Shown here in pieces: positions 1,118-16,117 of a stretch of DNA of 34,084 bases. A program made the translations under genes and the position numbers. Source of the stretch: Burkholderiales bacterium RIFCSPHIGHO2_12_FULL_69_20 (GTDB taxonomy: Bacteria; Pseudomonadota; Gammaproteobacteria; Burkholderiales; Burkholderiaceae_C); contig MESD01000038.1 in the NCBI GenBank assembly GCA_001770815.1, positions 1-34,084 on the forward strand, written 5' to 3'. Every line of letters begins with the position of its first letter. Position 1 is the first letter of the stretch. The notes below the pieces were generated by a model. It saw only the letters and a list, made by a program, of their open reading frames with translations, had not been told where the DNA came from and ran no database searches.

Positions 1118-2146
1118 ATGCCCTCGCTGAACACGCCCCTCGCTGCCGACACGCCGGCCGGACCCTCGCGCCGCCAACTGGTGCTGGGCGCTGCTGCCAC
1201 GGCCGCCGGCGCCATGCTGCCCGCTGCCAGCCAGGCCCAGGCGGCCTGGCCCAACAAGCCGGTGCGGGTGCTGGTGCCCTTCCCGCCGGGCGGCCTGACC
1301 GACGCCTATGCCCGCAGCTACTGCGAGTTCATGTCGCGCAAGTTCGGCCAGGCCTTCAACATCGAGAACAAGACCGGTGCCGGCGGCACGCTGGGTGCGG
1401 CTGAACTGGCCAAGTCGGCGCCCGACGGCCACACCCTGCTGATCAGCACCAGCACGGCGCTGTGGCAGGCCAAGGTGTTGTTCAAGAAGCTGCCCTACAC
1501 GCCGGTGAAGGATTTCGACCCGATCGCGCTGTTTCCCAGCGGCGCGCTGCTGGTGGCCGTCAATGCCAACGTGCCGGCCAAGACGCTGCGCGAGCTGATC
1601 ACCTTCGCCAAGGCCAACGCCACGGCCTGGGGCACCTACGGCGCCGGCTCCTGGGCCCACATGCTGGGTGACGTGCTGAACAAGAGCGAGAAGCTCAGCA
1701 TGGTGGTGGCGCACTACCGGGGCGAGGCACCGATGCTGACCGACCTGATCGGCGGCCAGATCCAGGTGGGCGTGGGCAGCGTGCAGGGTGTCATGCCGCA
1801 CATCCAGTCGGGCAAGCTGCGCGCCATCGGTGCCACCGGCAAGGTGCGCACGCCGCGCCTGCCCGATCAGACCACGCTGGTGGAGCAGGGCTTCACCGCG
1901 CCGGTGTTCGGCATGGAAGGCTTCTTGCCGTTTGCCGCACCGGCCGGCACGCCGCGCGACATCCTCGACAAGCTCTCGGCCGCCGTGCAAGAGGCTTCGG
2001 CCACGCCGCAGCTCAAGGCCCTGCGTGCGCAGTTCGGCATCCCCAATGTGCCGATGACCGACCCGGCCGAGGTGCGCAAGACCTGGGCCGCCGACTCGGC
2101 CGAATGGATCGCCCTGGCCACCGACCTGGGCATCACCCTCGACTGA
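1118..2146 (+). CDS. Bug/TctC-family periplasmic tricarboxylate-type solute-binding protein
   Basis: 342 aa. The N-terminus has a twin-arginine signal (SRRQLVLGAAATAAG, then a hydrophobic run ending in SQAQA-AW), so export by Tat with cleavage near residue 45 is predicted. The mature part opens with WPNKPVRVLVPFPPGG, the hallmark start of Bug receptors, and continues with the ENKTGAGGTLGA segment and the GMEGFLPFAAPAGTP region of the family. These proteins bind carboxylates such as citrate, terephthalate, nicotinate or dicarboxylates, and many are orphans without adjacent TctA/TctB, as here. The start is placed at the ATG at 1118 because CTGGAGA lies 7 bases upstream; a longer in-frame reading to 1043 has no ribosome binding site. 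It stands alone and converges on the P450 gene with 3 bases between the stops. The ligand is unknown. Confidence 0.92.
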   Translation: MPSLNTPLAADTPAGPSRRQLVLGAAATAAGAMLPAASQAQAAWPNKPVRVLVPFPPGGLTDAYARSYCEFMSRKFGQAFNIENKTGAGGTLGAAELAKSAPDGHTLLISTSTALWQAKVLFKKLPYTPVKDFDPIALFPSGALLVAVNANVPAKTLRELITFAKANATAWGTYGAGSWAHMLGDVLNKSEKLSMVVAHYRGEAPMLTDLIGGQIQVGVGSVQGVMPHIQSGKLRAIGATGKVRTPRLPDQTTLVEQGFTAPVFGMEGFLPFAAPAGTPRDILDKLSAAVQEASATPQLKALRAQFGIPNVPMTDPAEVRKTWAADSAEWIALATDLGITLD

Positions 2147-2149
2147 CGC

Positions 2150-3460
2150 TCACAGCCGCTGCAGCGTGATCGGCAGGCCGTCGCGCGGCTTGGCGATCGG
2201 CACCAGCTGGTAGGGCATGCGGTAGCCCTCGGGCACGCTGAAGCGGAACTGCCGCAGCACCTGGTGCATCACGCTCTTGACCTCCATGTCGGCAAAGTGC
2301 TGGCCGATGCACAGGTGCGCACCGCCGCCGAAGGGCAGGTAGGCGTAGGCATGCCGGCGGTGCTCGGCACGTTCGGGCGAGAAGCGCTCGGGGTCGAACG
2401 CGTGAGGCCGGGTCCACAGCGAAGGCATGTGGTGGGTGTGGATCGGCGAGATGCCCACCGGCGTGCCGCGCGGGATCTGGAAGCCGCCGAACTCGCAATC
2501 ACGCGCGGCCTTGCGCGGGATCGAGGTCAGCGGCGGATACAAACGCAGCGACTCCTTCATCACCCATTCGGTGCGCTGATGGCCGGCCAGGTCTTCGTAG
2601 CGCAGCTGCGCCTCGGGCAGCGCCCGCGCGTCCTGGCGCAGCCGCTCCTGCCAGTCGGGGTGGCGGGCCAGGCAATAGAACATCGTGGTCAGCGTGGAGG
2701 TGGTGGTGTCGTGCGCCGCCATCATCAGGAAGATCATGTGGTTGACGACCTCGTCGTCGCTGAAGCGCTCGCCGTCCTCGCCGCGTGCATGGCACAGCTG
2801 GCTGAACAGGTCGGGCCCCTCGGTGGCGCGCTTCTCGGCCAGCTTGGCGCGCATCAGCGCCGCCAGAAAGTGGCGCGAGCGCACCCCGCGCCACATGCCG
2901 AACGGCGGCACCGGCTTGCGGATCAGCGCCAGCGAGGCGTCCACCGTGTCGATGAAGGCCTGGTTCATGCGGTCGGCCTCGGGCCCCAGCGCCATGCCCA
3001 TGAACACCCGGGCGGCGATGTTCAGCGTCAGCGCCTTGATCTGCGGAAACACCTTCATGCCCCCGCTGGGCCAGCCGGCCACCACACGCTCGATCACCGG
3101 CCCCATGTCGGCCACGTAGCGCTCCATCGCCGCGCGCTTGAAGGCGCCCTGCATGATGCGGCGGTGGTGTTTGTGCGCCGGGTCGTCCATCGCCATGATG
3201 GCGCCCGGAAACACCGCGTCGATCCAGTAGGTCCAGCCGCCGCGGCTGCTGAAGTTGCCCTCGCGGTCATGCAGCACGAACTGGTTGGCCTCGGGGCCCA
3301 GCAGCGTGAGGGTCTCGAAGAAGGTGCGTGAGCGCACCACGTTGCCATGCACCTCCAGCGACTGGGCGTTGGCCAGCGGATCACGCAGAAACTTCGGCAG
3401 GTTGCCGACCAGCGGCAGGCCCTTGACCAGGGGAATGCTGTCGTAGGGGATGGCGCTCAT
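2150..3460 (-). CDS. Cytochrome P450
   Basis: 436 aa from the ATG at 3460 (GGAG 13 bases upstream; the longer frame to 3520 would run over the rlmJ start). All P450 landmarks are present: I-helix oxygen-activation segment AHDTTT (about 249-254), the K-helix ESLR (303-306), the PERF motif (357-360), and the heme-thiolate loop FGGGAHLCIG with Cys384. No N-terminal membrane anchor is evident, so a soluble bacterial enzyme fed by separate ferredoxin/reductase partners is likely. No redox partner gene is adjacent. The substrate is unknown; the C-terminal half resembles the sterol/fatty-acid or terpenoid hydroxylase-like bacterial P450s, but this is only an impression. It is divergent from rlmJ, with 58 bases between the two start codons. 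Confidence 0.95.
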   Translation of the reverse strand: MSAIPYDSIPLVKGLPLVGNLPKFLRDPLANAQSLEVHGNVVRSRTFFETLTLLGPEANQFVLHDREGNFSSRGGWTYWIDAVFPGAIMAMDDPAHKHHRRIMQGAFKRAAMERYVADMGPVIERVVAGWPSGGMKVFPQIKALTLNIAARVFMGMALGPEADRMNQAFIDTVDASLALIRKPVPPFGMWRGVRSRHFLAALMRAKLAEKRATEGPDLFSQLCHARGEDGERFSDDEVVNHMIFLMMAAHDTTTSTLTTMFYCLARHPDWQERLRQDARALPEAQLRYEDLAGHQRTEWVMKESLRLYPPLTSIPRKAARDCEFGGFQIPRGTPVGISPIHTHHMPSLWTRPHAFDPERFSPERAEHRRHAYAYLPFGGGAHLCIGQHFADMEVKSVMHQVLRQFRFSVPEGYRMPYQLVPIAKPRDGLPITLQRL

Positions 3461-4389: not shown

Positions 4390-5448
4390 TCAGCGGGGGC
4401 GGGCGGTGTTCAAACGCCGCACCGCGCGTGGTTTTCCGCAGCTCGAGCGCACCACCAGACGCGGCTGCAGCACCAGGTGCTCGACCGCATGGTCGGGCGC
4501 GACGATGCGCTCGCTCAGCAGCCGGCTGGCGGCGCGGCCGATGCAGTCCAGGTCGAAGGCCATGGCGGTGAGCGGCGGGTGGCACAAGGCGGCCTCGGCC
4601 ACGTCGTCCAGCGCGATCACCGAGCAATCCCGGCCCGGCTCGATGCCCAGTTGGACCAGCCCCCGCAGCGCGCCGAAGGCGATCAGCGGGTCGACGCAGA
4701 CCAGCGCGGTGGGCGGGCGGGCCAGTGCATGCAGCGGGGCCATCGCCAGATAACCGGCCTCACGCGTGGCCGGGCCAGGCAGCACCAGATCGGCGTCGGG
4801 CGTCTGGCCGGCTTCGGCCAACGCCGTCAAGAATCCGGCGAAGCCTTCGCGTGCGGCGATCGACAGTGGATCGAGGCCGACGAAGGCGATGCGCTGATGG
4901 CCCAGGGCCAGCAGATGCCGCGTGGCCATCGCCGCGCCCAGCCGGTGGTCACCACCGACGAAGTCGGTCGGCGCACCGGGCACATAGCGCAGCACCTGGA
5001 CCACCGGCACGCGCCAGTCGCGCAGCCGCGCCACATGGGTCTTGGGCGTGCCCGCGGCGGGTGTCAGCAGCAGGCCTTCGACCTTGTACTCGCGCAGTTT
5101 TTCAAGAAAGCGCTGCTGGCGCGGCACCGATTCGGCGCAGTTGCCCAGGATCAGCAGGTGGCCCAGGTCCTGCATGGCCTGCTGCAGGCTGGCCGTCACC
5201 TCGGCCATGCAGGGGTTCACCAGGTTGCAGACCGCAACCCCGACCAGGTGCGAATGCTTGCTGCGCAACTGCCCCGCGCCGCGGTCGTAGACATAACCCA
5301 GATCACGGATGACATGCTGCACATGCGAGCGGGTGGCGTCGGCCACGCGCGGGCTGTCATTGAGCACCATCGACACCGTGCCGGTGGCCACGCCGGCCTC
5401 GCGGGCGATGTCCTTGAGCGTGATGCGTTTGGCGGGCGCGTGGATCAC
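4390..5448 (-). CDS. LacI-family transcriptional regulator
   Basis: 352 aa from a GTG at 5448. The N-terminal helix-turn-helix ITLKDIAREAGVATGTVSMVLN (about residues 8-29) followed by the hinge region is classical LacI/GalR; the rest is a periplasmic-binding-protein-like effector domain (LVGVAVCNLVNPCMAEV, FVGLDPLSIAAREGF, VICV-type core strands). Effector and operators are unknown. The start is uncertain: an ATG at 5562 would add 38 residues, mostly a Pro-Arg repeat read from a hexanucleotide repeat, and would overlap the upstream gene by 80 bases. The GTG just before the conserved domain gives a normal family length and no overlap, although neither start has a strong ribosome binding site. 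It lies 34 bases after the respiratory operon on the same strand, so read-through is possible. Confidence 0.9.
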   Translation of the reverse strand: MIHAPAKRITLKDIAREAGVATGTVSMVLNDSPRVADATRSHVQHVIRDLGYVYDRGAGQLRSKHSHLVGVAVCNLVNPCMAEVTASLQQAMQDLGHLLILGNCAESVPRQQRFLEKLREYKVEGLLLTPAAGTPKTHVARLRDWRVPVVQVLRYVPGAPTDFVGGDHRLGAAMATRHLLALGHQRIAFVGLDPLSIAAREGFAGFLTALAEAGQTPDADLVLPGPATREAGYLAMAPLHALARPPTALVCVDPLIAFGALRGLVQLGIEPGRDCSVIALDDVAEAALCHPPLTAMAFDLDCIGRAASRLLSERIVAPDHAVEHLVLQPRLVVRSSCGKPRAVRRLNTARPR

Positions 5449-5482
5449 GGTGCGCAGGCGATCGGTGGTCGGCGCGCGCACA

Positions 5483-7426
5483 TCACGCGGGCGGGACGGG
5501 CAGAGTGGCCGTGGCCGTGGCCGTGGCCGTGGCCGCGGTTGGCCGGGTGGGCACGAACGCATCCGAGAAACAGAACTGTTCGCCCAGGCCCTGCGCCATG
5601 AAGGCCGGCACCGCCGCCTCGACCATCTGCAGCGAGCCGCAGGCGTAGACCTCGTAGCCGCTCAGGTCGGGGTGGTCGGCCAGCATGGCCTCGTGCACGA
5701 AGCCGCGCCGCCCCGGCCAGGGGTCGTTGTCGGTGGCGGCCGACAGCACCGGGATGAAACTGAAGTTGGCATGCTCGCGCTGCCAGCGTTCGGGCAGCTC
5801 GCGCAGGTACAGGTCGCGGGCCTCGCGCACGCCCCAATACAGCTGCATCGGCCGGTTGATGCCGCGCCGGAAGGCGTCTTCGACGATGCTCTTGATCGGC
5901 GCAAAGCCGGTGGCGCCGGCGACGAACAGGATGGGCCGATCGCTCTCGCGCAACGTGAAGCGGCCCAGCGGCCCTTCGAACTCGATCGCATCGCCGACCC
6001 GCATGGTGGTGAACACCTGCGTGGTGAACAGGCCGCCGGGGATCAGCCGCACATGCAGCTCGATCAAGGCGTTGTCCTGCGGCTCGCTGGCGAACGAGAA
6101 CGCCCGGCGCTGGCCGTCGGGCAGCAGGATGTTGATGTACTGACCGGCGGCAAAGTTGATGCGCTCGCCGCCGGGCAGTGCGATGTGCAGGCGCATCAGG
6201 TCGTCGGCCAGCTTGTCCATGGCCTCGATGCGGCCGCTCCAGCGGCGCAGCGTGGCCTCGGCGCCCAGGCTGGGCACGTCGACCTCGAGCTCGACGTCGT
6301 CCAGCGCCACGGCGCAGCACATCAGCGCCTGGCCGCGTGCGCGCATCGCCGCGGTCAGTGCCGCGCCCTGGTAGGGGCCGGGGTCGAAGCGGCCGTTGAG
6401 CACGGTGCACACGCACAAGCCGCAGCCGCCGGCACGGCAGTCGTAGGGCAGGGTCAGGCCGGCGCGCAGGCCGGCTTCCAGCACCGTCTCGCCGGCGCGT
6501 GCGCTGATCTGCACCGCACCGGGGTGCAGCGTCAGGTGCATCTGCTGGCGCGCGCCGCGCTGCGGTGGCAGCCAGGGCATCGCCAGCAGCAGCAGCGTAC
6601 CGCCGCCCACCAGGCCCCACACGGCGCCCAGCGGCCAGAGGTAGATCAGCGGGTACAGCGCCAGCAGGATCCAGTCGAGCGCCAGCGTGGCCGGCGCCAC
6701 CGCCAGGTTGGCCGCGCCGCCCTGGCTGGCCACCGGCAGCAGCAGGGCCAGGGCCAGCAGCATCACCGTCACGCCCAGCGTGATCGGCCGCGGTGGCAGC
6801 GTCTGGGCCTTGGGCACGCGCTGCACATGCACCCACATCAGCAGCAGGGTGACCAGCGGCACGCCGATGTGGATGAAGACCAGCAGCGAGAACAGCCGGT
6901 CGCTGACGCTGGCGGGGTAGATGAAGTTGCGGATCAGCGAGCCACCGAAGCCGGGCAGCCAGTCCATCCACTCGAAGCTGGCCTGGGTGACGAACTGCGC
7001 CAGGCTGTCCCAGGGCAGCATGTAGCCGTTGACGCCGGCCACGAAGACCAGCCAGATCAGCAGCACGCCGGTGAACCACGAGAACCAGCGGAAGCCACGC
7101 AGCCGGTCGAACGCGAAGTGGCGCAGCGCGTGCACCGTCATCGTGGCCACCAGCGCATCGGACGCATAGCGGTGCACGCTGCGCAGCACACCGCCGGCGA
7201 ACCATTGCCCCTCGGTGAGGGCCTGCACCGAGCGGTAGGCGCCTTCGACGCTGGTGTCGAAGAAGGCGAACAGGTACAGCCCGGTGCCGCAGACCACCCA
7301 GAACAGGAAAAAGACCGTGGCGCCCAGGTGGTACAGCGGGTTCAGCGGGTCGCCGAAGGCGCGGTTGAACAGCGCCTCGGTGGCCATGAAGCCCGCCCGC
7401 AGGGCGCGCTGCAGGGCCCGCATCAT
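5483..7426 (-). CDS. Cytochrome b fused to [2Fe-2S] ferredoxin and FAD/NAD(P)H reductase
   Basis: 647 aa. Residues 1-235 are a cytochrome b/b6 N-terminal domain with the two heme pairs His85/His99 and His186/His200 and a cd-loop (GYMLPWDS, near 134-141). More membrane helices follow to about 285. Residues 295-385 are a plant-type [2Fe-2S] ferredoxin (C330-RAGG-C335-GL-C338 and a Cys near 370). Residues 390-625 are a ferredoxin-NADP reductase-type module: flavin motif RAFSFAS (441-447), nucleotide motif GATGFAP (504-510) and YACGSLQM (594-601). The natural reading is electron transfer from NAD(P)H through FAD and 2Fe-2S to membrane b hemes and on to quinone or a partner, with the soluble modules on the cytoplasmic side. 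No Rieske or cytochrome c1 gene accompanies it. ATG at 7426 overlaps the upstream stop (ATGA). The C-terminal tail is a Thr-Ala repeat. Confidence 0.9.
   Translation of the reverse strand: MMRALQRALRAGFMATEALFNRAFGDPLNPLYHLGATVFFLFWVVCGTGLYLFAFFDTSVEGAYRSVQALTEGQWFAGGVLRSVHRYASDALVATMTVHALRHFAFDRLRGFRWFSWFTGVLLIWLVFVAGVNGYMLPWDSLAQFVTQASFEWMDWLPGFGGSLIRNFIYPASVSDRLFSLLVFIHIGVPLVTLLLMWVHVQRVPKAQTLPPRPITLGVTVMLLALALLLPVASQGGAANLAVAPATLALDWILLALYPLIYLWPLGAVWGLVGGGTLLLLAMPWLPPQRGARQQMHLTLHPGAVQISARAGETVLEAGLRAGLTLPYDCRAGGCGLCVCTVLNGRFDPGPYQGAALTAAMRARGQALMCCAVALDDVELEVDVPSLGAEATLRRWSGRIEAMDKLADDLMRLHIALPGGERINFAAGQYINILLPDGQRRAFSFASEPQDNALIELHVRLIPGGLFTTQVFTTMRVGDAIEFEGPLGRFTLRESDRPILFVAGATGFAPIKSIVEDAFRRGINRPMQLYWGVREARDLYLRELPERWQREHANFSFIPVLSAATDNDPWPGRRGFVHEAMLADHPDLSGYEVYACGSLQMVEAAVPAFMAQGLGEQFCFSDAFVPTRPTAATATATATATLPVPPA
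5506..5535. repeat. Five tandem copies of the hexamer TGGCCG
   Basis: The hexanucleotide TGGCCG is repeated five times without error. It lies at the 3' end of the cytochrome b-reductase gene, where it encodes the (Thr-Ala)n tail on the minus strand. In the frame of an alternative upstream start of the LacI-type gene it would encode Pro-Arg repeats. A hexamer cannot shift the frame, so copy-number change would only alter tail length. Confidence 0.9.
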
Positions 7427-8829
7427 CGGGGGGGCCGCATCGCTTTGATCACCACCACCACGAACAGCAGCCCGCCGACGATGGCCACCGCGCCGCCCAG
7501 CCCCATCAGGCCCATGCCGGCGATCTCGCCCGTGCTGCGCAGCACCTGCTCGCTGCCGGCCACCTTGCGCTGTACGCCGTAACCGCCCGACCAGACCAGG
7601 CCGACGATGTGCAGCAACTGGCCGGCGCCGTAGAGGAGGGGCTGCGTCACCGCCAGCCGGCCCTGCGGCGTGCCGTAGCCCAACTGCGGCAGCAGCAGGT
7701 AGACCAGGCCCATCAGCGCCAGCGTCACGCCGACGATGCAGCCGTGGTAATGCGCCGGGATCGTGACGTTGCTGCCGCCGATCATCAGCCCGATCAACCC
7801 GCCGGCGGCGAACAGCGCCATCGACGACCACAGCGCCGCGCGCAGCGGCCGGGCTGCTGCTGCCAGCTGGCGCATCGGCAGCATTGCCAGCAACACCGCC
7901 AGCGCCACCGGGAAGATGGCGATGCCGCCGCCCAGGCGCATCGCCCAGGTGTGCAGCGCCCGGTGCTCGACGCTGGCCACGTCGTGCGCCAGGTAGGCAT
8001 AGGGCGTGATGAACACGCTGGCCAGCGCCAGCGCAAACAGCATCAGCACCACCCGCGGGCTCAGCGCGATGCGCGCGCCGCAGGCCTGCGCCAGCCACAG
8101 CCACGCCACCAGCATCGCCAGTGTCCAGGTGAACTGCAACGCATGGCCGACACCCCAGAACAGGATCTCGTAGTAGGCCTTGCCGTCGAGCTGGGTCGGC
8201 ACCGTGGCCAGCGACCACAGCAGCGCCAGCAGCGCCACTGCGCTGGACACCACGCTGGCGTTGAGGCCGAAGCGCAGCGCTGCGGCGCCGTCGGGCGCGG
8301 GGCCGATGGCGCGGGCGGCCCACAGGCTGCGCAGCACCTGCAGCGCCGCGCCGGCGCCGAAGATCACCAGCCCGGCCTGGAACCAGGGGCTGGTGAGCAC
8401 CGGGATGTAGTTGGCCATGATCGCGGTGCCGGGCTGCACGAAGGCGGCCACCGACATCAGCAGCGTGCCCCCCGCGCAAAGGCCCAGCGCGATCCAGCTG
8501 GCCGTGGCGCCGCGCGCCGAGCTGTTCAGGCTCCACAGCGCGCCGACGATGGCGGCAAACCACACCAGCACCGACAGGTCGACATGCACCACCAGCGCGA
8601 TGCGGAAGAAATCCGCCGCCGGCAGCCAGGCGTTGATGCCCGGCGTGCGCGCCAGCACCAGCAGCACCGAGAACAGGCCCGAGACGATCAGCGCCAGCAG
8701 GCCCAGCCCCAGCCAGGCCCGGCCCAGCGCGCGTTGCTCGTCGCCGGCAATCGGCAGGCTGAAGTCGGCCGATGAGGCGGCCTGTTGGGCGGGCGCATTG
8801 GCGCCGGCAGCGTGCGACAAGGTGTTCAT
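7423..8829 (-). CDS. Non-canonical heme-copper oxidase subunit I-like protein (His-Asp at the CuB site)
   Basis: 468 aa, about 12 hydrophobic segments, similar in layout to heme-copper subunit I. Visible ligand positions: low-spin heme His82 (VVHVDLS, helix II), CuB His229 in WGVGHALQF (helix VI), and the helix X pair His360/His362 in IPAHYHG. Two departures stand out. The cross-linked Tyr expected four residues after the helix VI His is Phe233. The helix VII His-His pair is read as His282-Asp283 in LAHDVAS, which lies 53 residues after His229 (about 49-50 in ordinary members). It is therefore unlikely to be a normal O2 reductase. A gNOR-like nitric oxide reductase is one possibility. No separate subunit II accompanies it. 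The ATG at 8829 overlaps the upstream stop (ATGA) and the stop overlaps the next ATG in the same way. The alternative is a structural paralogue without CuB. Confidence 0.82.
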   Translation of the reverse strand: MNTLSHAAGANAPAQQAASSADFSLPIAGDEQRALGRAWLGLGLLALIVSGLFSVLLVLARTPGINAWLPAADFFRIALVVHVDLSVLVWFAAIVGALWSLNSSARGATASWIALGLCAGGTLLMSVAAFVQPGTAIMANYIPVLTSPWFQAGLVIFGAGAALQVLRSLWAARAIGPAPDGAAALRFGLNASVVSSAVALLALLWSLATVPTQLDGKAYYEILFWGVGHALQFTWTLAMLVAWLWLAQACGARIALSPRVVLMLFALALASVFITPYAYLAHDVASVEHRALHTWAMRLGGGIAIFPVALAVLLAMLPMRQLAAAARPLRAALWSSMALFAAGGLIGLMIGGSNVTIPAHYHGCIVGVTLALMGLVYLLLPQLGYGTPQGRLAVTQPLLYGAGQLLHIVGLVWSGGYGVQRKVAGSEQVLRSTGEIAGMGLMGLGGAVAIVGGLLFVVVVIKAMRPPR

Positions 8830-9356
8830 TGCAAGGTGATGCCACCGCGGGTGGCGTCGAAGTCGATGACCAGAACCTGCGCGGGTGCCAGCGTCACCGT
8901 GGCCTCGCGCTGGTAGGCGAAACCGGTGCCGCGTGCGTCGTCGTTGAGCCGCACGGCGATGCGTTGCTCACCGGCGGGCACCACCAGCCGCTGGTACACC
9001 GCCGATGCGCCATCGCGTGACAGCCCCGACGGCGCAGACGTGCGGCGCAGCGCCGGCTGGCCGCCGATGTCGACCTCCACCGTCACGGGCGAGCGTTCAC
9101 GCGGGCAGCTGATCGGCGCGCGCATGTTGGGCGGCAGCTTGGCCAACTCGGCCTCACTGAGGCGGCGGCATTCGCCCAGCGGCTTGCCGGTGTGGCTGAA
9201 GCTGACCTTGATCAGCGCCTGGTCGGTGGCCAGGTGCCGGTAGGTGGGCCATTGCGAGAACACGCCGATCACCACGGCAAACAGCGCATAGAGCAAGCCC
9301 TGCGCGACCCACGCACCGGCCGACAGCGCCTTGGGCGGGCGGGTGGTTTCAGACAT
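8826..9356 (-). CDS. Membrane-anchored periplasmic protein of unknown function in the heme-copper operon
   Basis: 176 aa. I do not recognise the family. One N-terminal transmembrane helix (about residues 14-33) is followed by an approximately 140-residue domain that should face the periplasm. That domain is predicted beta-rich from its alternating pattern and has two cysteines (ECRRLS and ISCPRER) about 20 residues apart that could form a disulfide. There is no CxxCH or other metal-binding motif. The position resembles that of FixH-like accessory proteins in other oxidase clusters, but I see no convincing FixH motif. The ATG at 9356 is inside the end of the upstream gene (8-base overlap) and the stop overlaps the start of the subunit I-like gene, so translation is coupled to both neighbours. 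An assembly or structural role is inferred from position only. Confidence 0.75.
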   Translation of the reverse strand: MSETTRPPKALSAGAWVAQGLLYALFAVVIGVFSQWPTYRHLATDQALIKVSFSHTGKPLGECRRLSEAELAKLPPNMRAPISCPRERSPVTVEVDIGGQPALRRTSAPSGLSRDGASAVYQRLVVPAGEQRIAVRLNDDARGTGFAYQREATVTLAPAQVLVIDFDATRGGITLQ

Positions 9357-10917
9357 GGTGGACTTTCGGCAGCGGGTCGGTCGAGGGCTCGAGCTGGCTG
9401 ACGCGCTGGCGCAGGCGGCGCAAGGCCGCTTGCAGCGGGCCGGCCTCACCGGATTCGCCCGCGTCGGCCCAGGCCACTTCAAGCCGATGCTGCGGCACCT
9501 CGGCGCGCAGATGGGGTTCACGCTCGCCGCGCAGCCGTTGTTCGGTCCACTGCTGGCCCAGGCGGTATTCGCAGCCGCCCGGGCGGCAGGTGCTGACCAG
9601 CACGCCGGCAGCGCCGTCGCGCAAGGCGTATTCGACGAACGAGGGCGGCAGCATGCCGGTGCATTCGAGGCTGAAGCGGGCGATATCGTCGCCGGCCAAT
9701 GGGGCCAGCGCCGCGCCCTGGGCGCAGCCGAACACCACGATGGGTCGTGGCGCCTTCAACGTGGCCAACTGCTGCTGCAGATCGCGGCGCAGGGCACCGA
9801 TGGGCGCCGCCGGCAGGTCGATGCCGGTGACCAGATCGGCGGCGCTGCGAAACGGCGTCGACGATGGGCAGGCGCCGACGCAGATGCCGCAGGCGGTGCA
9901 CAGGTCGGCATCGACCACCGCGATCTGCTTGCCGGCCTTGCCGTTGGGGTGCGGCGCCATCGTCACCGCGGCAAACGGGCAATCGACGAAACAGCGTCGG
10001 CAGCCGTTGCAGTTGGCCGGGTCGACCACCGCCACCGGCGCCGGGGCCGGCTGCGGCAGGAAGGGCAGCACCGACAGCAGCGCCAGCAGCGCGGCCACCA
10101 GGGCCCAGGCGGCGGCCGGCGAGGTGGCCTCGGCCAGCGGATGGATGAACAGCAGCGCCCAGTCCAGCCGCAAGGCCTGCGGCACGGTGGCCAGGTTGGC
10201 CGGCGCATGGCTGCTGACCGGCTGCAGCAGGGCCAGTGCCAGCAGCGTGACCAGCAGGCCCAGGCTGAGCGCACGCGGCGGCCAGACGGCGGCGCGGGTC
10301 AGGCGCTGGATGTGGAACCACAGCGTGAACAGCAGCAGCAGCGGTGCCCCCAGGTGCACGAAGACGAACAGCGAGAACAGCCGGTCGCTGACCGCGCCCT
10401 CGGTGAGAAAGTTGCGCGCCAGCGGCGTGGCCAGCAGCGGCAGTGCGTCCAGCCACTCGGCGGTGGCGATGGCCGAGTACTGGGCGAGCTGATCCCAATG
10501 CAGCCAGAAACCGCCGATCGCGCTGATGAACACCAGCGCGATGGTCGGCACGCCGGTCAGCCAGGCATGGCGGCGCGCGCCGCGGTAGTGCCGCAGCAGC
10601 CACTCACGCCCCAGGTGCGCAGCCAGCAGGATGACGAAGGCATCGGCCGCATAGCGGTGCAGGCTGCGCAGCACGCCGCCGGCCCAGGGCTGGTGGCGAC
10701 CCAGGTCGACGATCGACGCATAAGCACCGGCCACCGAGGTGTCGATCACGGCATAGACGTAGATGCCGCTGACGGCCAGCAGCCAGAACACCAGGAAGCC
10801 GAGTGAACCCAGATGGCGCAGCGGGCTCAGCGCCGCGCCGAAGGCGGCATCGAAGCCATGCTCCAGATGGCGCCATGCGGCCAGGGCCGGCGGCGGTGGT
10901 TCACGGTCTTGCCACAT
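9349..10917 (-). CDS. Cytochrome b fused to two [4Fe-4S] clusters and an MvhD/FlpD-like domain
   Basis: 522 aa. Residues 1-235 form a cytochrome b N-terminal domain with His87/His101 and His188/His202 as two bis-His heme sites. Further hydrophobic helices reach about residue 290. Residues 300-352 are a bacterial 2x[4Fe-4S] ferredoxin (C303-x2-C306-x2-C309-x3-C313 and C340-x2-C343-x2-C346-x3-C350). Residues 392-475 match the methyl-viologen-reducing hydrogenase delta (MvhD/FlpD) domain: VFGCAQG, LECTGMLPP, STCRPGGCEYRLG with Cys398, 419, 444 and 449. In methanogens and sulfate reducers MvhD passes electrons between hydrogenase or formate dehydrogenase and heterodisulfide reductase-type proteins; here no such partners are nearby. 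The gene is parallel in design to the other cytochrome b fusion in the operon. Start ATG at 10917 overlaps the sco gene by 17 bases. Confidence 0.9.
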   Translation of the reverse strand: MWQDREPPPPALAAWRHLEHGFDAAFGAALSPLRHLGSLGFLVFWLLAVSGIYVYAVIDTSVAGAYASIVDLGRHQPWAGGVLRSLHRYAADAFVILLAAHLGREWLLRHYRGARRHAWLTGVPTIALVFISAIGGFWLHWDQLAQYSAIATAEWLDALPLLATPLARNFLTEGAVSDRLFSLFVFVHLGAPLLLLFTLWFHIQRLTRAAVWPPRALSLGLLVTLLALALLQPVSSHAPANLATVPQALRLDWALLFIHPLAEATSPAAAWALVAALLALLSVLPFLPQPAPAPVAVVDPANCNGCRRCFVDCPFAAVTMAPHPNGKAGKQIAVVDADLCTACGICVGACPSSTPFRSAADLVTGIDLPAAPIGALRRDLQQQLATLKAPRPIVVFGCAQGAALAPLAGDDIARFSLECTGMLPPSFVEYALRDGAAGVLVSTCRPGGCEYRLGQQWTEQRLRGEREPHLRAEVPQHRLEVAWADAGESGEAGPLQAALRRLRQRVSQLEPSTDPLPKVHHV

Positions 10918-11749
10918 GGAGCCGGGTGCCGCGGCGCTGTCGCCAGCGGTCGAGCAGCAGGTAGGTGAGCACGGTGATGAAGAAGCCCAGGCCGCCGACC
11001 ACCTCGAGGATCAGCTTGTAGTCGTAGCGGTAGGCGCCGGTCTCGGGGTCGTACACGGTGCACAGGATGCGCACGCGCTCGATCAGTGTTTCGATCGCCC
11101 GGCCAGGCGCTGCCGGCGCTGCATTCAGCAACTGGCGCAGCGGCTCGCCCAGCGCGGCGGCGTTGAGGCGGTCGCCATACACCTGGCTGTGGATGCGGCC
11201 ACGGGCGTCGACGATGGTCACGCCCAGCAGGTGGTCGAAGCCCGCGGGCGTGGCCTGGTAGCTGAAGCCGAAGTTCTGCGTCAGCGCATCCACCGCGGCG
11301 CCGGGCGGGCTGAGGAAGGCCCAGTTCGGGTAGACGATGCGCTGCTGCGCGGCAAAGGCGCGCAGCGCGGTGGGGGAGTCGAAGGGCTGGTTGAAGCCGA
11401 TGCTGACCACGTTGAACTGGTGCGGGCCGAACACCTTGTCCAGGCCCTTCACCGCCTCGTGCAGCGCCCGCGTCTGGGTCGGGCAGATCTGGAAGCAGCC
11501 GGTGTAGATGAAACTGACCAGCAGCGGCTTGCCGCGAAACTGCGACAGCCGCACCGGGCGCTCGGCGGTATCGAGCAGCGGCGCATCGATCACCGGGCGG
11601 CCGATGGCGGCCTGGCTGATGCGCAGGGCCAACGCCTCGTCCAGCTTCGAGGTCTGGTCCGCGAATGCGGCGCTGCCGGCCGTCAGCGCGGCGAGCATTG
11701 CTGCCGGCAACGCGGCCCGCAGCAGGGCCTGTTCAGCGCAGCGCGGCAT
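10901..11749 (-). CDS. SCO1/SenC-family copper chaperone with C-terminal membrane anchor
   Basis: 282 aa. A signal peptide (hydrophobic run about residues 9-28, probable cleavage after AFA) precedes a thioredoxin-like domain with the copper site Cys85-FQI-Cys89 and the distal His173 (FDHLLGV), as in Sco proteins that load CuA of oxidase subunit II. The usual segment SFIYTGCFQICP is intact. Unusually, about 100 further residues end in a transmembrane helix (about 246-266) and a basic tail, so the protein is tethered at its C-terminus rather than its N-terminus. Its natural client is the CuA-containing subunit II encoded in the same operon. The ATG at 11749 lies 17 bases inside the upstream gene. 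Confidence 0.93.
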   Translation of the reverse strand: MPRCAEQALLRAALPAAMLAALTAGSAAFADQTSKLDEALALRISQAAIGRPVIDAPLLDTAERPVRLSQFRGKPLLVSFIYTGCFQICPTQTRALHEAVKGLDKVFGPHQFNVVSIGFNQPFDSPTALRAFAAQQRIVYPNWAFLSPPGAAVDALTQNFGFSYQATPAGFDHLLGVTIVDARGRIHSQVYGDRLNAAALGEPLRQLLNAAPAAPGRAIETLIERVRILCTVYDPETGAYRYDYKLILEVVGGLGFFITVLTYLLLDRWRQRRGTRLHVARP

Positions 11750-12629
11750 CGACAGCCACTGCCGCGAGCAGTGCGCTCAACTGCACCATCGAGCCGAAGA
11801 AGGCCGCCATCGCGGTGGCGCGGCTGGGCGCGCGGGCCAGCCGCCAGGTGCGCAGCAGTAAGTAGCCCCCCCCGGCCAGCGCCCCGACCAGCACCACCGG
11901 GCCGGCGCCGAACAGCACCGGCAGCAGCGACACCGCCACCAGCACGATGGCGTTGGCATGCACGATGCGCGCCGCGCGTGGCACGCCCACCACCACCGGC
12001 AGCATCGGCACGCCGGCGGCGGCGTAGTCGTCCTTGCAGGCGATGGCCAGGCTCCAGAAGTGCGGGGGCGTCCACAGCAACAGCGCCAGCGCCAGCAGCC
12101 AGGGCAGGGGCCCCAGCGTGGGGTCGACCGCTGCGGCACCGGCCAGCACCGCAAAGCTGCCCGACAAACCGCCCACGACGATGTTCAGCCAGGTGCGGCG
12201 CTTGAGCCACAGCGTGTAGACGACGCCGTAGGTGAACGCGCCGAGGAAGATGAAGAACGCTGCCAGCGGGTTGATCACCCACGCCGTGGCGCCCACCGAC
12301 AGCGCCAGCATCAGCGCGATCAGCAGCAGCCAGCCCGGCGAGGTTTTCAGCGCTCCGCTGGCAAACGCACGCTTGCGCGTGCGCGCCATCTGCCGGTCAC
12401 TGTCGGCTTCGACGAACTGATTGAACGCGCCCGCGGCCGCCGAGGCCACCAGCACCGACAAGGCCAGCACCAGCACCTGCCAGAGGCTCAAGCCACGACC
12501 GGGCGTGATGGCCAGCCCGGCCAGCGCGCTGATCATGATCAGCACGCCGATGCGCAGCTTGAAGATGCCGATCACCGTGCGGGCGATCCCGGGGGCGGCG
12601 CGCGGCGCCGTGACGACGGTTGTGTTCAT
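11733..12629 (-). CDS. cyoE: Protoheme IX farnesyltransferase (heme O synthase)-like UbiA protein
   Basis: 298 aa, about nine transmembrane helices. The UbiA prenyltransferase motif 1 is NQFVEADSDRQMARTRKR (70-87); heme O synthases usually have N-x3-D-x3-D with two Asp, whereas here the first acidic residue is Glu74, with Asp76 and Asp78 following. The second region TPPHFWSLAI...DDYAAAGVPMLP is typical of CyoE/CtaB and separates it from quinone-pathway UbiA proteins. It would farnesylate protoheme to heme O, which the divergent ctaA-like product could oxidise to heme A for the heme-copper subunits of this operon. The ATG at 12629 has GGGGAG about 8 bases upstream and follows subunit I by 18 bases. 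Confidence 0.92.
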   Translation of the reverse strand: MNTTVVTAPRAAPGIARTVIGIFKLRIGVLIMISALAGLAITPGRGLSLWQVLVLALSVLVASAAAGAFNQFVEADSDRQMARTRKRAFASGALKTSPGWLLLIALMLALSVGATAWVINPLAAFFIFLGAFTYGVVYTLWLKRRTWLNIVVGGLSGSFAVLAGAAAVDPTLGPLPWLLALALLLWTPPHFWSLAIACKDDYAAAGVPMLPVVVGVPRAARIVHANAIVLVAVSLLPVLFGAGPVVLVGALAGGGYLLLRTWRLARAPSRATAMAAFFGSMVQLSALLAAVAVDAALR

Positions 12630-12647
12630 CGCGGTTCTCCCCGTGCA

Positions 12648-14345
12648 TCAACTCAGGCCCCACAGCGTGGACAGGTACTTCCAGTTGATGAAGTAGTAGA
12701 GGATGAAGGCCAGCAGGAACACCATCGCCAGCGAGAAGGTGCCGGGTGCGGCAAAGCCCATCGAGCCGGTGGTCTGCACCGCCACCGTGGGTGCGGTGCG
12801 CGGGATCGGCGTGAACTTCGGGCTGACGTTGCCGGTGTCCAGCCGCTTGCCGAACAGCAGCGAGCCGACGGTGATCAGGATGTAGAAGCCACCGCTGACG
12901 ATCGCCGCGATGCCCGCGATGCCCACCAGGCCCATCATCAGGTAGGCCGCGCCGGGCCATTCATAGGCCAGTGCGTGGCCCTGGAAGGCCATGTCCCAGT
13001 GCCGCCGCGAGACCCCCAGCGTGCCCGCCCCCATCATCACCAGGCAGAAGAAGTACATCGAGAAGCCGAACAGGTAGGGCTGCCACTGCGCCAGCTTGGG
13101 CAGGATCATCTCGCGGCGGAACAGCACCGGGATCAGGTAGTAGGTCAGCGCCATGAAGGTCAGCGTGGTGCCCACCACCACCGTGGCATGGAAGTGCCCC
13201 GGCACGTAGATGGTGTTGTGGATGATCATGTTGAGCTGCTCGGTGCCCATCATCACGCCCGAGATGCCACCCAGGAAGCCGAAGCCGATGATCGAGATGA
13301 ACACCCCGGAGAAGGTCGGGTTGCTCCACGGTGCCTTGCGCAGCCACTCGAACAAGCCCTTGGTGAAGCCCTTCTGGCGCTGCGCCACTTCCATCGCGCC
13401 GGGGATGGTCAGGCCGTGGATCATCGAGGCCAGCACCGCGAAGTACATGAAGTAGCTGGTGTTGACGACCTTCCAGCCGGTGGACAGCCCCGGGTCGGCC
13501 AGCAGGTGGTGCGCGCTGGCCAGTTGCAGGAACAGGATGTAGAGCAGGAAGGCCGAGCGGCTGACACGCTCGCTCATCGGCTTGGCACCGAAGGCCACCG
13601 CCGCCACCAGGTACCACACCGAGATGTGCGCCGCCACGTTGATCTGCTGCGACGAGTGGCCGAAGGCCCACCAGATCGTGCGGTAGATCAGCGGGTCGAC
13701 CTCCTTGACCCAGCCGATGGCCATCAGGTAGGTGGGGATCAGGATGATCGCGCCCGAGGCGATGGTGAACACCGCGATGATCGCCGCCGTGATGGCGCCG
13801 AAGGTGACCAGCGGCACCGAGCCCTGGTAAGTCTTGTCGCGCTTGGCGATCACCAGCGTGCCGAAGAAGACAAAGCAGGCGATCAGCGCGCCGACGGCGA
13901 ACAGGATCAGCCCGGCGTAGAACGACGGTGCGGCCATCATTGGCACGTACGAGGTCATCATCACGCTGGAGCCGCCGTCGAACACGGCCAGGTTGTTCAT
14001 CACCGCGCCGATCAGCATCAGCGCAAACGCGGCCCAGGCGATGTTGGGCGTGGCGATGCGACATCGCAGCAGCGTGGAGGAACAGAAATAGAGGATCGCG
14101 ATCTCGAAGAAGATGATCCAGAAGATCAACATGTCGATGCCGTGGGCCGTGAGCACCATGTAGAAGGTGTCGGCCTGCAGCCAGTGGATGGCCGGCCAGC
14201 GCGTCAGCGCGATGCCGATGGCCAGGATGCCGCCGATCAGCAGGAACACCACCGCCGTGACGGCGTTGGCGATCATCAGCTTCTCGGCATGCGCCTCGAA
14301 CTGCAGCCCTGAACGCGGGCAGGTGCGGTAGCTTGTGTTTGCCAT
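12648..14345 (-). CDS. Heme-copper oxidoreductase subunit I with Gln in place of the active-site Tyr (eNOR-like)
   Basis: 565 aa, about 12-14 membrane helices. All six metal-ligand histidines are visible: His68 (TAHGIDM, helix II), His230 (FGHSSQQ, helix VI), His279-His280 (SAHHLL, helix VII, 49 residues later as in A-type oxidases), and His384/His386 (PGHFHAT, helix X). The residue that should be the His-cross-linked Tyr (HPEVY in cytochrome c oxidase) is Gln234 and the preceding residue is also Gln. O2-reducing A- and B-type enzymes need this Tyr, so a different reaction is likely. The pattern fits the E-type family described as eNOR (nitric oxide reductase derived from oxidases), as far as I recall that description. 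With CuA subunit II upstream, cytochrome c is a plausible donor. ATG at 14345 has GGAGG 7 bases upstream. Confidence 0.9.
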   Translation of the reverse strand: MANTSYRTCPRSGLQFEAHAEKLMIANAVTAVVFLLIGGILAIGIALTRWPAIHWLQADTFYMVLTAHGIDMLIFWIIFFEIAILYFCSSTLLRCRIATPNIAWAAFALMLIGAVMNNLAVFDGGSSVMMTSYVPMMAAPSFYAGLILFAVGALIACFVFFGTLVIAKRDKTYQGSVPLVTFGAITAAIIAVFTIASGAIILIPTYLMAIGWVKEVDPLIYRTIWWAFGHSSQQINVAAHISVWYLVAAVAFGAKPMSERVSRSAFLLYILFLQLASAHHLLADPGLSTGWKVVNTSYFMYFAVLASMIHGLTIPGAMEVAQRQKGFTKGLFEWLRKAPWSNPTFSGVFISIIGFGFLGGISGVMMGTEQLNMIIHNTIYVPGHFHATVVVGTTLTFMALTYYLIPVLFRREMILPKLAQWQPYLFGFSMYFFCLVMMGAGTLGVSRRHWDMAFQGHALAYEWPGAAYLMMGLVGIAGIAAIVSGGFYILITVGSLLFGKRLDTGNVSPKFTPIPRTAPTVAVQTTGSMGFAAPGTFSLAMVFLLAFILYYFINWKYLSTLWGLS

Positions 14346-14358
14346 GGGTGCCTCCGGC

Positions 14359-14898
14359 CTACTTGACGTACAGGCGACCGACCATCGTGTGATGGTTGAT
14401 GCCGCAGAATTCGTTGCACACCACCGAGTAGGTGCCTGCCTGGTTGGGCGTCACGGTGATCACGTGCTCGAAGCCCGGCACGATCTGGATGTTGATGTTG
14501 GCGGGCTGCAGCGAGAAGCCGTGGTTGTAGTCCAGCGACGTGAGGTGCAGCTTGTAGGTCTTGCCCTTCTCCAGTTCGATGATGGGCCAGAAGCTCCACA
14601 GCCGCGCGATCATGTAGACGTCGCTGCCGGGCGGTGGCGCGACCACCGGCGTGTTGTCGGCCGTCTCGGTGCGCACGGTGTACTTGTCGACCACCGCCTG
14701 GGCCTTGGCGGTGAACTTCTCCGGCGTGGTGCGGTAGGTCTCGGTCGACAGGTTCTGTTTGCCCCAGACATGCCAGCCGACCATCATGGCGAACATCACC
14801 AGGCACCAGATCAGCGCAATCGCGATCCAGGTGCCTTCGACGCGGTCGATCGGGTGCCGGTACCAAAGTCGCTCGGCGGGCGGGAGGATGGCGCTCAT
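14359..14898 (-). CDS. Heme-copper oxidoreductase subunit II with CuA site
   Basis: 179 aa, short for a subunit II. A single N-terminal transmembrane helix (about 24-43) anchors a periplasmic cupredoxin domain. The dinuclear CuA ligands are complete: His126 (DYNHGFS), Cys161, Cys165, His169 and Met172 in CNEFCGINHHTM, with Glu163 as the backbone ligand. This makes the enzyme a probable cytochrome c or cupredoxin-accepting complex rather than a quinol-dependent one. B-type oxidases also have a one-helix subunit II, often with a separate one-helix subunit IIa, and the upstream 53-aa gene fits that role. The gene lies 13 bases before subunit I and 9 bases after the small gene. Confidence 0.94.
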   Translation of the reverse strand: MSAILPPAERLWYRHPIDRVEGTWIAIALIWCLVMFAMMVGWHVWGKQNLSTETYRTTPEKFTAKAQAVVDKYTVRTETADNTPVVAPPPGSDVYMIARLWSFWPIIELEKGKTYKLHLTSLDYNHGFSLQPANINIQIVPGFEHVITVTPNQAGTYSVVCNEFCGINHHTMVGRLYVK

Positions 14899-14907
14899 GG
14901 CGATCTC

Positions 14908-15069
14908 CTACTTGGCCACGGGCAGCGTGAGGATGTCGACCACCCCCCACAGCGTGTAGACCAGCATGGGCACCATCACCCCGATGAACAGCAGCAGGAA
15001 CGGGTTGTCCAGCAACTGCTGCATCCAGGGCACGGGGGCCGTGTCGTCGTCGTTGGGTAGCGGGCTCAT
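14908..15069 (-). CDS. 53-aa single-helix membrane protein, probable subunit IIa-like component
   Basis: First gene of the operon. It encodes 53 residues with one transmembrane helix (about residues 24-46, in the segment FLLLFIGVMVPMLVYTLWGVV) and an acidic, proline-containing N-terminus. The start at ATG 15069 is supported by AAGGAG at 5 bases' distance; a longer in-frame reading to 15141 has no ribosome binding site. Small one-helix subunits that complete the missing helix of subunit II are known from ba3-type oxidases (subunit IIa), and this gene directly precedes a one-helix subunit II, which makes the same role plausible. No sequence motif proves it. Confidence 0.8.
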   Translation of the reverse strand: MSPLPNDDDTAPVPWMQQLLDNPFLLLFIGVMVPMLVYTLWGVVDILTLPVAK

Positions 15070-15168: not shown

Positions 15169-15247
15169 TGATTGCGGGTTCTTGCAGTGCACAAGAAGGC
15201 CGCGGCCATAGCATCGGCGCACCCCATCCAGCCCCGAGGTTTTGACG

Positions 15248-16117
15248 ATGAAACACCTGCACCGCCTGGCCTGGATCAGCCTGCTGTCACTCGTGCTGGT
15301 GGTGGGGCTGAGCGCCTTCATGCGACACGTGGCGACGGGCCTCGGCTGCCAGCCCTGGCCGACCTGTCATGCCCAGTATTCGGGTATGTCCGGGGGCGCC
15401 AGCAGCCTGGCGGTCAGCGTCGCGCGCCTGCTGCACCGGGTGGTGGCCACCGGCACCTTGCTGCTGGCCATCACGATGCTGGTCATCGGCCTGCGGGCGG
15501 GCCCCCGTGGGCGGCGCGAGGCGGTGCTGGCGGCGCTGCTGCTGGTTCTGGCGCTGGGCCTGGCGGTGCTGGGCGTGTTCACCGCCGGGTCGCGCCTGCC
15601 GGCGGTGGCGCTGGGCAACCTGCTGGGTGGCTTCATGATGCTGGCCGTCGCCGCCAGGCTGGTGGGGCCGCCGGCGGCGCCGGGTTTGGGGGCGGCGGCG
15701 GCCGGTGTCGCGGTGCTGCTGGTGGCGCAGAGCGCGGGCGGCGCGCTGGTCAGCGCATCGCAGGCCGGGCTGGTCTGCAACGACCTGCGGGCCTGCGCCG
15801 AGTTGGCCCGCGCCGCGGGCTGGCCCTGGCAGGCGCTGAACCCGTGGTTCGCTGCCGGTCTGCCGCCCGTCGACGGCGCCTTGGTGCAGGGGCTTCATCG
15901 CCTTGCTGCCATCGTCGTCACGCTGGCGGTGGCGGCGCTCGGCTGGCGGGCGCTGCGCGCGGGACGTCGACCCGAGGGCTGGGCGCTGCTGTTGCTGCTG
16001 GCCTTGCAGGCGGTGCTGGGCCTGGTGGTCGGCAGCATCGGCCTGCCGCTGTGGGCGGTGCTGCTGCACAACCTGGCCAGTGCGTTGCTGCTGGCGCTGG
16101 TGGTCAGGCTGATCTAG
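15248..16117 (+). CDS. CtaA/COX15-family heme A synthase-like protein, divergent in its first half
   Basis: 289 aa with eight hydrophobic helices in two halves, as in CtaA. The extracytoplasmic Cys34/Cys40 pair in GLGCQPWPTC corresponds to the conserved disulfide loop. His63 (LLHR), His217 (GLHR) and His274 (LLHNL) match three of the four conserved heme-ligand histidines. The fourth, normally in an 'ALHL' context in the first half, is missing: the region reads VALGNLLG. The Glu normally three residues before the first His (E-x-x-H-R) is Arg60. Normal CtaA oxidises heme O to heme A; the changed half is the presumed catalytic one, so activity may be altered. ATG at 15248 has GAGG 9 bases upstream. 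It is divergent from the heme-copper operon and probably serves it. Confidence 0.85.
   Translation: MKHLHRLAWISLLSLVLVVGLSAFMRHVATGLGCQPWPTCHAQYSGMSGGASSLAVSVARLLHRVVATGTLLLAITMLVIGLRAGPRGRREAVLAALLLVLALGLAVLGVFTAGSRLPAVALGNLLGGFMMLAVAARLVGPPAAPGLGAAAAGVAVLLVAQSAGGALVSASQAGLVCNDLRACAELARAAGWPWQALNPWFAAGLPPVDGALVQGLHRLAAIVVTLAVAALGWRALRAGRRPEGWALLLLLALQAVLGLVVGSIGLPLWAVLLHNLASALLLALVVRLI

Follow-up and report, generated by a model that had tools for sequence, protein, structure and literature searches.

An eNOR of Rhodothermus marinus has reportedly been shown to reduce NO. The eNOR group is one of seven nitric oxide reductase (NOR) classes named in the accessible part of PMC12569097; as PMC8756737 notes, its name goes back to Hemp and Gennis (2008). 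In the accessible part of PMC8756737, eNOR is listed for Archaea, Chloroflexi, and Proteobacteria, and Gln at the position of the cross-linked Tyr is taken as its mark (Table A4). Here, we describe an operon of nine minus-strand genes at positions 5483-15069 of contig MESD01000038.1 from Burkholderiales bacterium RIFCSPHIGHO2_12_FULL_69_20, which was analyzed over its whole length of 34,084 nucleotides (hereinafter, the window). Judged by sequence features, one of its two subunit I-like proteins (denoted SU1a), together with the adjacent CuA subunit II, is a member of this already described family, and NO reduction is the likely function of the SU1a-based enzyme. We see about even chances that the operon as a whole encodes an eNOR along with dedicated maturation factors and a pair of membrane-spanning cytochrome b reductases that would bring in electrons from the cytoplasm.

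The likeness to eNOR consists in the Gln that replaces Tyr and in the CuA-type subunit II beside subunit I. The difference is that, here, two cytochrome b reductase fusions, a membrane-anchored protein, and a copper-less paralogue of subunit I share the operon, an arrangement undescribed for eNOR in the accessible part of PMC8756737. Such an accessory gene set with eNOR was not found in the titles and abstract starts of the open-licence literature either. The original prediction knew of no described enzyme with the full set; the catalytic part of that set belongs to a described family. The operon genes, in their 5'-to-3' order on the minus strand, followed by a divergently oriented possible partner, are

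14908..15069, minus strand: small one-helix membrane protein of 53 amino acids (aa) in the position of a small oxidase subunit, recognized from its sequence
14359..14898, minus strand: CuA subunit II of eNOR (PF00116)
12648..14345, minus strand: SU1a, eNOR-type subunit I with Gln-Gln replacing Val-Tyr (PF00115, trees)
11733..12629, minus strand: haem O synthase CtaB/CyoE (TIGR01473, 248.7 bits, cut-off 210.3)
10901..11749, minus strand: Sco-type copper chaperone with a CxxxC motif (PF02630, SCO1/SenC)
9349..10917, minus strand: bFe, fusion of cytochrome b (four haem His) with 2x[4Fe-4S] and MvhD/FlpD domains (domain matches)
8826..9356, minus strand: anch, membrane-anchored protein with one helix and a beta domain (alignment, structure model)
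7423..8829, minus strand: SU1b, copper-less subunit I paralogue (PF00115; haem His present, CuB His-His lost)
5483..7426, minus strand: bFd, fusion of cytochrome b (four haem His) with [2Fe-2S], FAD, and NAD(P)H reductase domains (domain matches)
15242..16117, plus strand: divergent, shortened CtaA-family (heme A synthase-like) gene (PF02628, E 8e-23)

The operon boundaries agree with the original prediction, the end coordinate 15069 being exact because the gene of the 53-aa protein occupies 14908-15069, and the gene identities claimed there (CuA subunit II, UbiA haem O synthase, Sco, and two fusions) are borne out by domain matches. The claim that most of the genes overlap holds narrowly: neighboring genes share 4-17 bases at five of the eight junctions and are spaced 9, 13, and 18 bases apart at the remaining three. 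The two subunit I-like proteins score 212.8 and 48.7 bits against PF00115 (COX1; cut-off, 34.8). For the 53-aa protein, no match was found in Pfam, where the query carried two extra residues, or in PHROGs.

Both subunits I lack, as predicted, the Tyr that forms the His-Tyr cross-link in O2-reducing heme-copper oxidases. SU1b carries Phe in its place, and in SU1a, it is replaced by Gln in all 88 sequences compared, the window included. Where aligned B-family oxygen reductases read GHPxVYFW, SU1a reads GHSSQQIN, with both Gln residues and the His-His pair invariant throughout the 88 sequences. The three CuB His and the haem His are retained; the second His of the HxH pair is Lys in two of the 88 rows, both from Thermus. 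In the eNOR-like subunit I of the Thermus plasmids (L101, L102), this Lys occupies the expected position of a low-spin haem ligand. The CuA-bearing cupredoxin subunit II adjoins SU1a, as in eNOR, and its residues H126, C161, C165, H169, and M172 are conserved in all 86 rows compared, with E163 present in 84 of them. Phylogenetic trees were built from 24 of the 88 SU1a rows and 24 of the 101 SU1b rows, with a second tree omitting three long-branch rows (L055, L057, and L060) and the outgroup rows CcoN and NorB from the source genome itself. SU1a clusters with proteins from Defluviimonas, Thermus, and Thermomicrobium that share the GHxxQQ motif (bootstrap 93; SH-like approximate likelihood ratio test 77). 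We assign the catalytic part to the known family because of the Gln motif, the grouping with proteins that have the same motif, and the retained CuA ligands. An sNOR or CuANOR identity of SU1a was considered and rejected, given that Asn is expected at this position (PMC8756737, Table A4) and Gln is found.

For comparison of gene neighborhoods, we used the best 80 of at least 579 confirmed SU1b matches in named genomes (hereinafter, named loci), which are the nearest ones because the best-scoring matches were kept. Judging by their titles, these loci come mostly from betaproteobacteria, Burkholderiales among them, and in some cases from Lysobacterales or Steroidobacteraceae. Cultured Burkholderiales with the operon include Curvibacter sp. 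PAE-UM (L117) and Simplicispira lacusdiani (L132). All nine gene types are present in 49 of the 80 loci, so that the conservation check proposed with the original prediction turned out strongly positive and the arrangement is not a chance one; chance adjacency of the nine genes was rejected on this count and on co-occurrence across genomes. The exact gene order of the window recurs in 38 loci, and in seven, the two fusions are exchanged. By gene, bFe is present in 72 loci, bFd (detected by its reductase part) in 71, both fusions in 65, anch in 78, and the 53-aa membrane protein in 64, with some of the absences caused by contig ends. In farther genomes, bFd is often missing, its reductase part being without a match among those listed for stretches L037-L069. 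One stretch (L164, 1-6250) contains both fusions, anch, and SU1b, without SU1a in the 6 kb upstream.

Co-occurrence was assessed in a sample of 229 genomes of the class, with genome lists compiled by hand. eNOR was counted when SU1a matched at E below 1e-200, which left out six of the 25 SU1a-matching genomes (E 1e-46 or weaker). SU1b was counted at E below 1e-40, and from the 29 matching genomes, five were excluded (in four, the match was to SU1a alone, and in one, to another long frame). The resulting totals are 19 genomes with SU1a, 24 with SU1b, 20 with bFe, and 21 with anch. Both bFe and anch are present in all 19 eNOR genomes, versus one (bFe) and two (anch) of the 210 others; the bFe exception is a genome of 77% completeness, and those for anch are the same genome and one of 73%. 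The Fisher values for the association of bFe and anch with eNOR are below 1e-25 and overstate independence because the genomes are related. These counts tie bFe and anch to eNOR within the class and leave SU1b as a looser partner. Beyond the class, on a plasmid of the alphaproteobacterium Defluviimonas, bFe and anch are located inside the eNOR operon, and the SU1b query matches SU1a alone in that stretch.

Genes of denitrification recur around these operons. At an identity of at least 50%, a NirS query matched 23 of 144 stretches, with one genome contributing more than one stretch in some cases; ten more of the 33 stretches with a match, at 23-45% identity, were not counted as NirS. In one stretch (L243), nirS is divergent to the eNOR genes, and on a plasmid of Thermus thermophilus TTHNAR1, the relative of SU1a lies beside nitrite reductase, Rrf2, and DUF542 genes. 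The flanks of the 80 named loci encode NnrS in eight cases and Crp-type regulators in 26. In the source genome itself, nirS shares a contig with a cNOR gene, and CcoN and pieces of an aa3 oxidase are encoded as well; no Cu-type nitrite reductase in it reached its cut-off. The eNOR signature and the denitrification neighbors together favor NO as the likely substrate, as originally predicted. The best sequence matches of SU1a among solved structures are B-family oxygen reductases, namely, the ba3 enzyme of Thermus (PDB 1xme) and 7deg, from which SU1a differs in the replaced Tyr, and relatives of SU1a are annotated as cytochrome oxidase subunit I. This is compatible with SU1a being an altered B-family oxygen reductase that has lost the Tyr and acts on a substrate other than NO. 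Such a reading appears very improbable in the face of the invariant Gln-Gln, the nirS and nnrS neighbors, and the 11 of 19 eNOR genomes in which neither cNOR nor qNOR was matched at E 1e-20.

The two fusions, which would supply the electrons, are built on a common scaffold. Their cytochrome b parts are 46% identical between the window copies and belong to a quinone-reacting superfamily (PF00033). All four haem His are conserved in 93 of 93 bFe rows and 71 of 71 bFd rows; the eight cluster Cys and four MvhD Cys of bFe are each present in 89 to 93 rows and the four cluster Cys of bFd in 70 or 71. Among 169 frames with this cytochrome b scaffold, 93 carry the FeS-MvhD part, 73 the [2Fe-2S]-FAD part, and three neither; of these three, one is a flavodoxin-FAD-NAD diflavin fusion, one is cut at a contig end, and one stops after cytochrome b. 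A diflavin fusion of this type adjoins the eNOR operon in L040 (2175-4655, minus strand), as an alternative to the [2Fe-2S]-FAD fusion. Swapping of reductase domains on one cytochrome b scaffold is expected if cytochrome b takes electrons from varied cytoplasmic donors. Hydropathy counts, corrected by eye (the plain count overlooked the His-rich helix B and added one false segment), fit six helices; the reductase domains then face the same side as the N-terminus, and by homology to cytochrome b, this side is probably the cytoplasm.

For each fusion, the soluble part has described relatives. The [4Fe-4S] and MvhD part of bFe matches the C-terminus of HdrA2 (E 1e-21, far below the curated cut-off); unlike HdrA2, bFe is fused to cytochrome b and lacks the HdrA flavin part. 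Residues 307-626 of bFd match BenC (E 3e-62, below the curated cut-off), a representative of the BenC/AntC/MmoC-type [2Fe-2S]-FAD reductases, from which bFd differs in that the reductase is fused behind a bis-haem cytochrome b. By domain listing, the Chloroflexi open reading frame RME88945.1 (Table A3 in the accessible part of PMC8756737) resembles bFe in combining cytochrome b6, dimethyl sulfoxide-reductase-beta-like, and FlpD domains, and differs in an additional cytochrome (C1) domain.

The protein encoded next to bFe, anch, was left unassigned in the original prediction, and indeed, no match was found in Pfam, NCBIfam, or PHROGs or in a PDB profile search. A fold search with its model (predicted local distance difference test [pLDDT], 95.6) gave 0 matches at E 0.001 and weak hits alone. 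C63 and C84 are invariant in an alignment of 74 sequences. In L043 (6387-8432, plus strand), bFe and anch are naturally one gene encoding a 682-residue protein.

Membership of the cytochrome b parts in a quinone-reacting superfamily is what would be expected if the fusions were NAD(P)H or ferredoxin:quinone reductases that merely lie in the eNOR operon, with eNOR receiving its electrons as usual from bc1 and cytochrome c; 12 of the 80 named loci have a gene for a small cytochrome c in their flanks, which points in the same direction. Nevertheless, we consider this quite unlikely. The C-terminal half of bc1/b6f cytochrome b carries the PEWY motif of the Qo site, and this half is missing from the fusions, which match N-terminal domain families alone in Pfam and have just the N-terminal, four-histidine part. 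Furthermore, quinone reduction alone leaves the strict coupling to eNOR unexplained.

SU1b is a different case from SU1a. The HxH haem pair is present in 101 of 101 sequences and the helix-2 (TM2) His in 100, the window included. The first CuB His is retained in all 101, and the adjacent CuB His-His pair is replaced in all of them. Because this pair is absent, SU1b is not a reductase subunit; its candidacy as a second catalytic heme-copper subunit was rejected for the lost CuB ligands, and the original prediction of two reductase subunits I fails at this point. Homology to SU1a is apparent from 28% identity and an alignment score of 166, with the best of 100 shuffles reaching 25. The structure model, predicted from an alignment of 79 of the 101 sequences, adopts the 12-helix fold of subunit I (pLDDT, 91.5), with ba3 oxidase as the best PDB fold match (template modeling score up to 0.74) and 7deg as the only PDB sequence match, both of which differ from SU1b in possessing the CuB His-His pair. 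A Gln three residues past the CuB His is common to SU1a (88 of 88) and SU1b (101 of 101); five B-family rows with the motif string have Val there, and the string was not found in other rows. This shared Gln favors placing SU1a and SU1b as sisters, and we tentatively derive SU1b, as a copper-free protein, from the eNOR line. In the phylum sample, a profile search (E 1e-40) detected SU1b in 58 of 398 genomes, and in the plasmid and viral collections searched, it was not found. Two further loci concern SU1b-like sequences: L060 (8090-10810, minus strand) has an open frame of about 900 codons ending in a weak SU1b-like domain, and an apparent fusion of SU1b with cytochrome b in L168 was rejected as an overlapping frame.

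Away from eNOR, SU1b was followed in 40 stretches, of which eight contain SU1a, four others contain bFe, anch, or both, and 28 contain none of the three. The company it keeps in the last group bears on a different explanation, in which the fusions and SU1b form a maturation system, with electrons going to CtaA and haem carried to, or inserted into, eNOR. A CtaA, CtaB, or aa3 subunit I gene occurs in 16 of the 28 stretches, and this neighborhood is the chief argument for such a maturation system; 12 stretches have no such gene, four of which belong to a divergent group (31-33% identity). CtaA is encoded in 23 of the 24 SU1b genomes; in L043, it lies between the anchored domain and SU1b, and in L168, a bFd-type cytochrome b without a reductase domain (1588-2529, plus strand) is followed by a frame that appears CtaA-like by eye. 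In yeast, according to a title cited in PMC12808453, ferredoxin acts with Cox15 in haem O hydroxylation. Although SU1b may be a maturation factor, a maturation role for the fusions as well seems unlikely, if by no means negligible: CtaA is encoded in all 19 eNOR genomes and in 146 of the 229 overall, whereas bFe is limited to 20 of the 229, and bFe and anch track eNOR rather than CtaA.

Under the explanation that we prefer, an eNOR supplied with electrons from the cytoplasm, SU1a, the CuA subunit, and the small subunit would form an eNOR-family NO reductase, the haem O/A and CuA site of which would be made by CtaB, the divergent CtaA-like gene product, and Sco (C85, C89, and H173 of Sco are present in 81 of 81 aligned rows). 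The haem-CuB site of SU1a would convert NO to N2O, with a periplasmic cytochrome c or cupredoxin delivering electrons to CuA. In bFd, electrons would pass from NAD(P)H via FAD and [2Fe-2S] to the bis-haem cytochrome b and across the membrane; in bFe, they would come from ferredoxin or an MvhD-type carrier via the [4Fe-4S] clusters. Both fusions would then hand electrons to eNOR on the periplasmic side, with anch probably serving as a docking or assembly partner. Entry of electrons both through CuA and from cytoplasmic reductants, as suggested in the original prediction, could therefore be accommodated. Because the fusions would supply cytoplasmic electrons directly, NO removal need not run through the quinone pool and bc1. 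SU1b, related to SU1a but free of copper and probably binding two haems, would act as a haem carrier, assembly factor, or haem relay. The data themselves establish sequence families, ligands, conservation, co-occurrence, and gene neighbors; from these we infer the enzymatic activity, how the proteins lie in the membrane, where and in which direction electrons flow, whether a complex forms, and what SU1b does. A bolder form, in which a NO reductase fed directly by cytoplasmic NAD(P)H and ferredoxin or MvhD-type carriers through dedicated cytochrome b reductases bypasses quinone and bc1 and works with the copper-free heme-copper-fold paralogue, a protein class of its own, as haem relay or chaperone, is rather doubtful.

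Several observations weigh against this scheme. SU1b is absent from four of the 19 eNOR genomes and present in nine of the 210 without eNOR, and its frequent position beside haem A/aa3 genes away from eNOR speaks against its being no more than a component of an NO-reducing complex. How SU1a, SU1b, and the B family branch from one another depends on long branches (flagged by a program warning), which makes the sister placing tentative, and the reference set of the SU1a tree contains no purified eNOR sequence. At E 1e-20, cNOR or qNOR was matched in eight of the 19 eNOR genomes, the source genome included, so that eNOR is not the sole NOR there; four of the nine genomes with SU1b and without eNOR have such a match too. 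In the Thermus and Thermomicrobium stretches (approximately 8 kb per side), neither fusion nor anch was matched, so that catalysis itself does not require the fusions. Finally, the electrons from the fusions could go to quinone rather than to the periplasm.

Among the remaining neighbors, the divergent CtaA-like gene, which the original prediction omitted, has counterparts in several related loci, with one or two CtaA-family genes at the same position; a CtaA-family cluster that includes ordinary copies is represented in the flanks of 52 of the 80 named loci. These flanks also contain SCP2-domain genes (11 loci), U32-peptidase genes (11), and UbiD-type genes (9), the first two of which we take to resemble UbiT and UbiU/UbiV of anaerobic ubiquinone synthesis. 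At the 3' end of the window operon, a LacI-type regulator gene (4390-5562, minus strand) adjoins; its longest frame overlaps the operon by 80 bases, and its true start is probably further inside.

Bacteria with eNOR are possible sources of N2O that gene surveys may miss because public databases list relatives of subunit I as cytochrome c oxidase. If the fusions indeed feed eNOR from the cytoplasm, NO reduction would be independent of the bc1 branch, which would change how much energy is gained and how well NO is tolerated. In the SU1b family, the heme-copper fold would be put to use without copper, and the family may be relevant to the entry of haem A into subunit I, an open question according to the accessible part of PMC9145763. 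SU1b is the part of the system that could prove to be more than a variant of the known eNOR.

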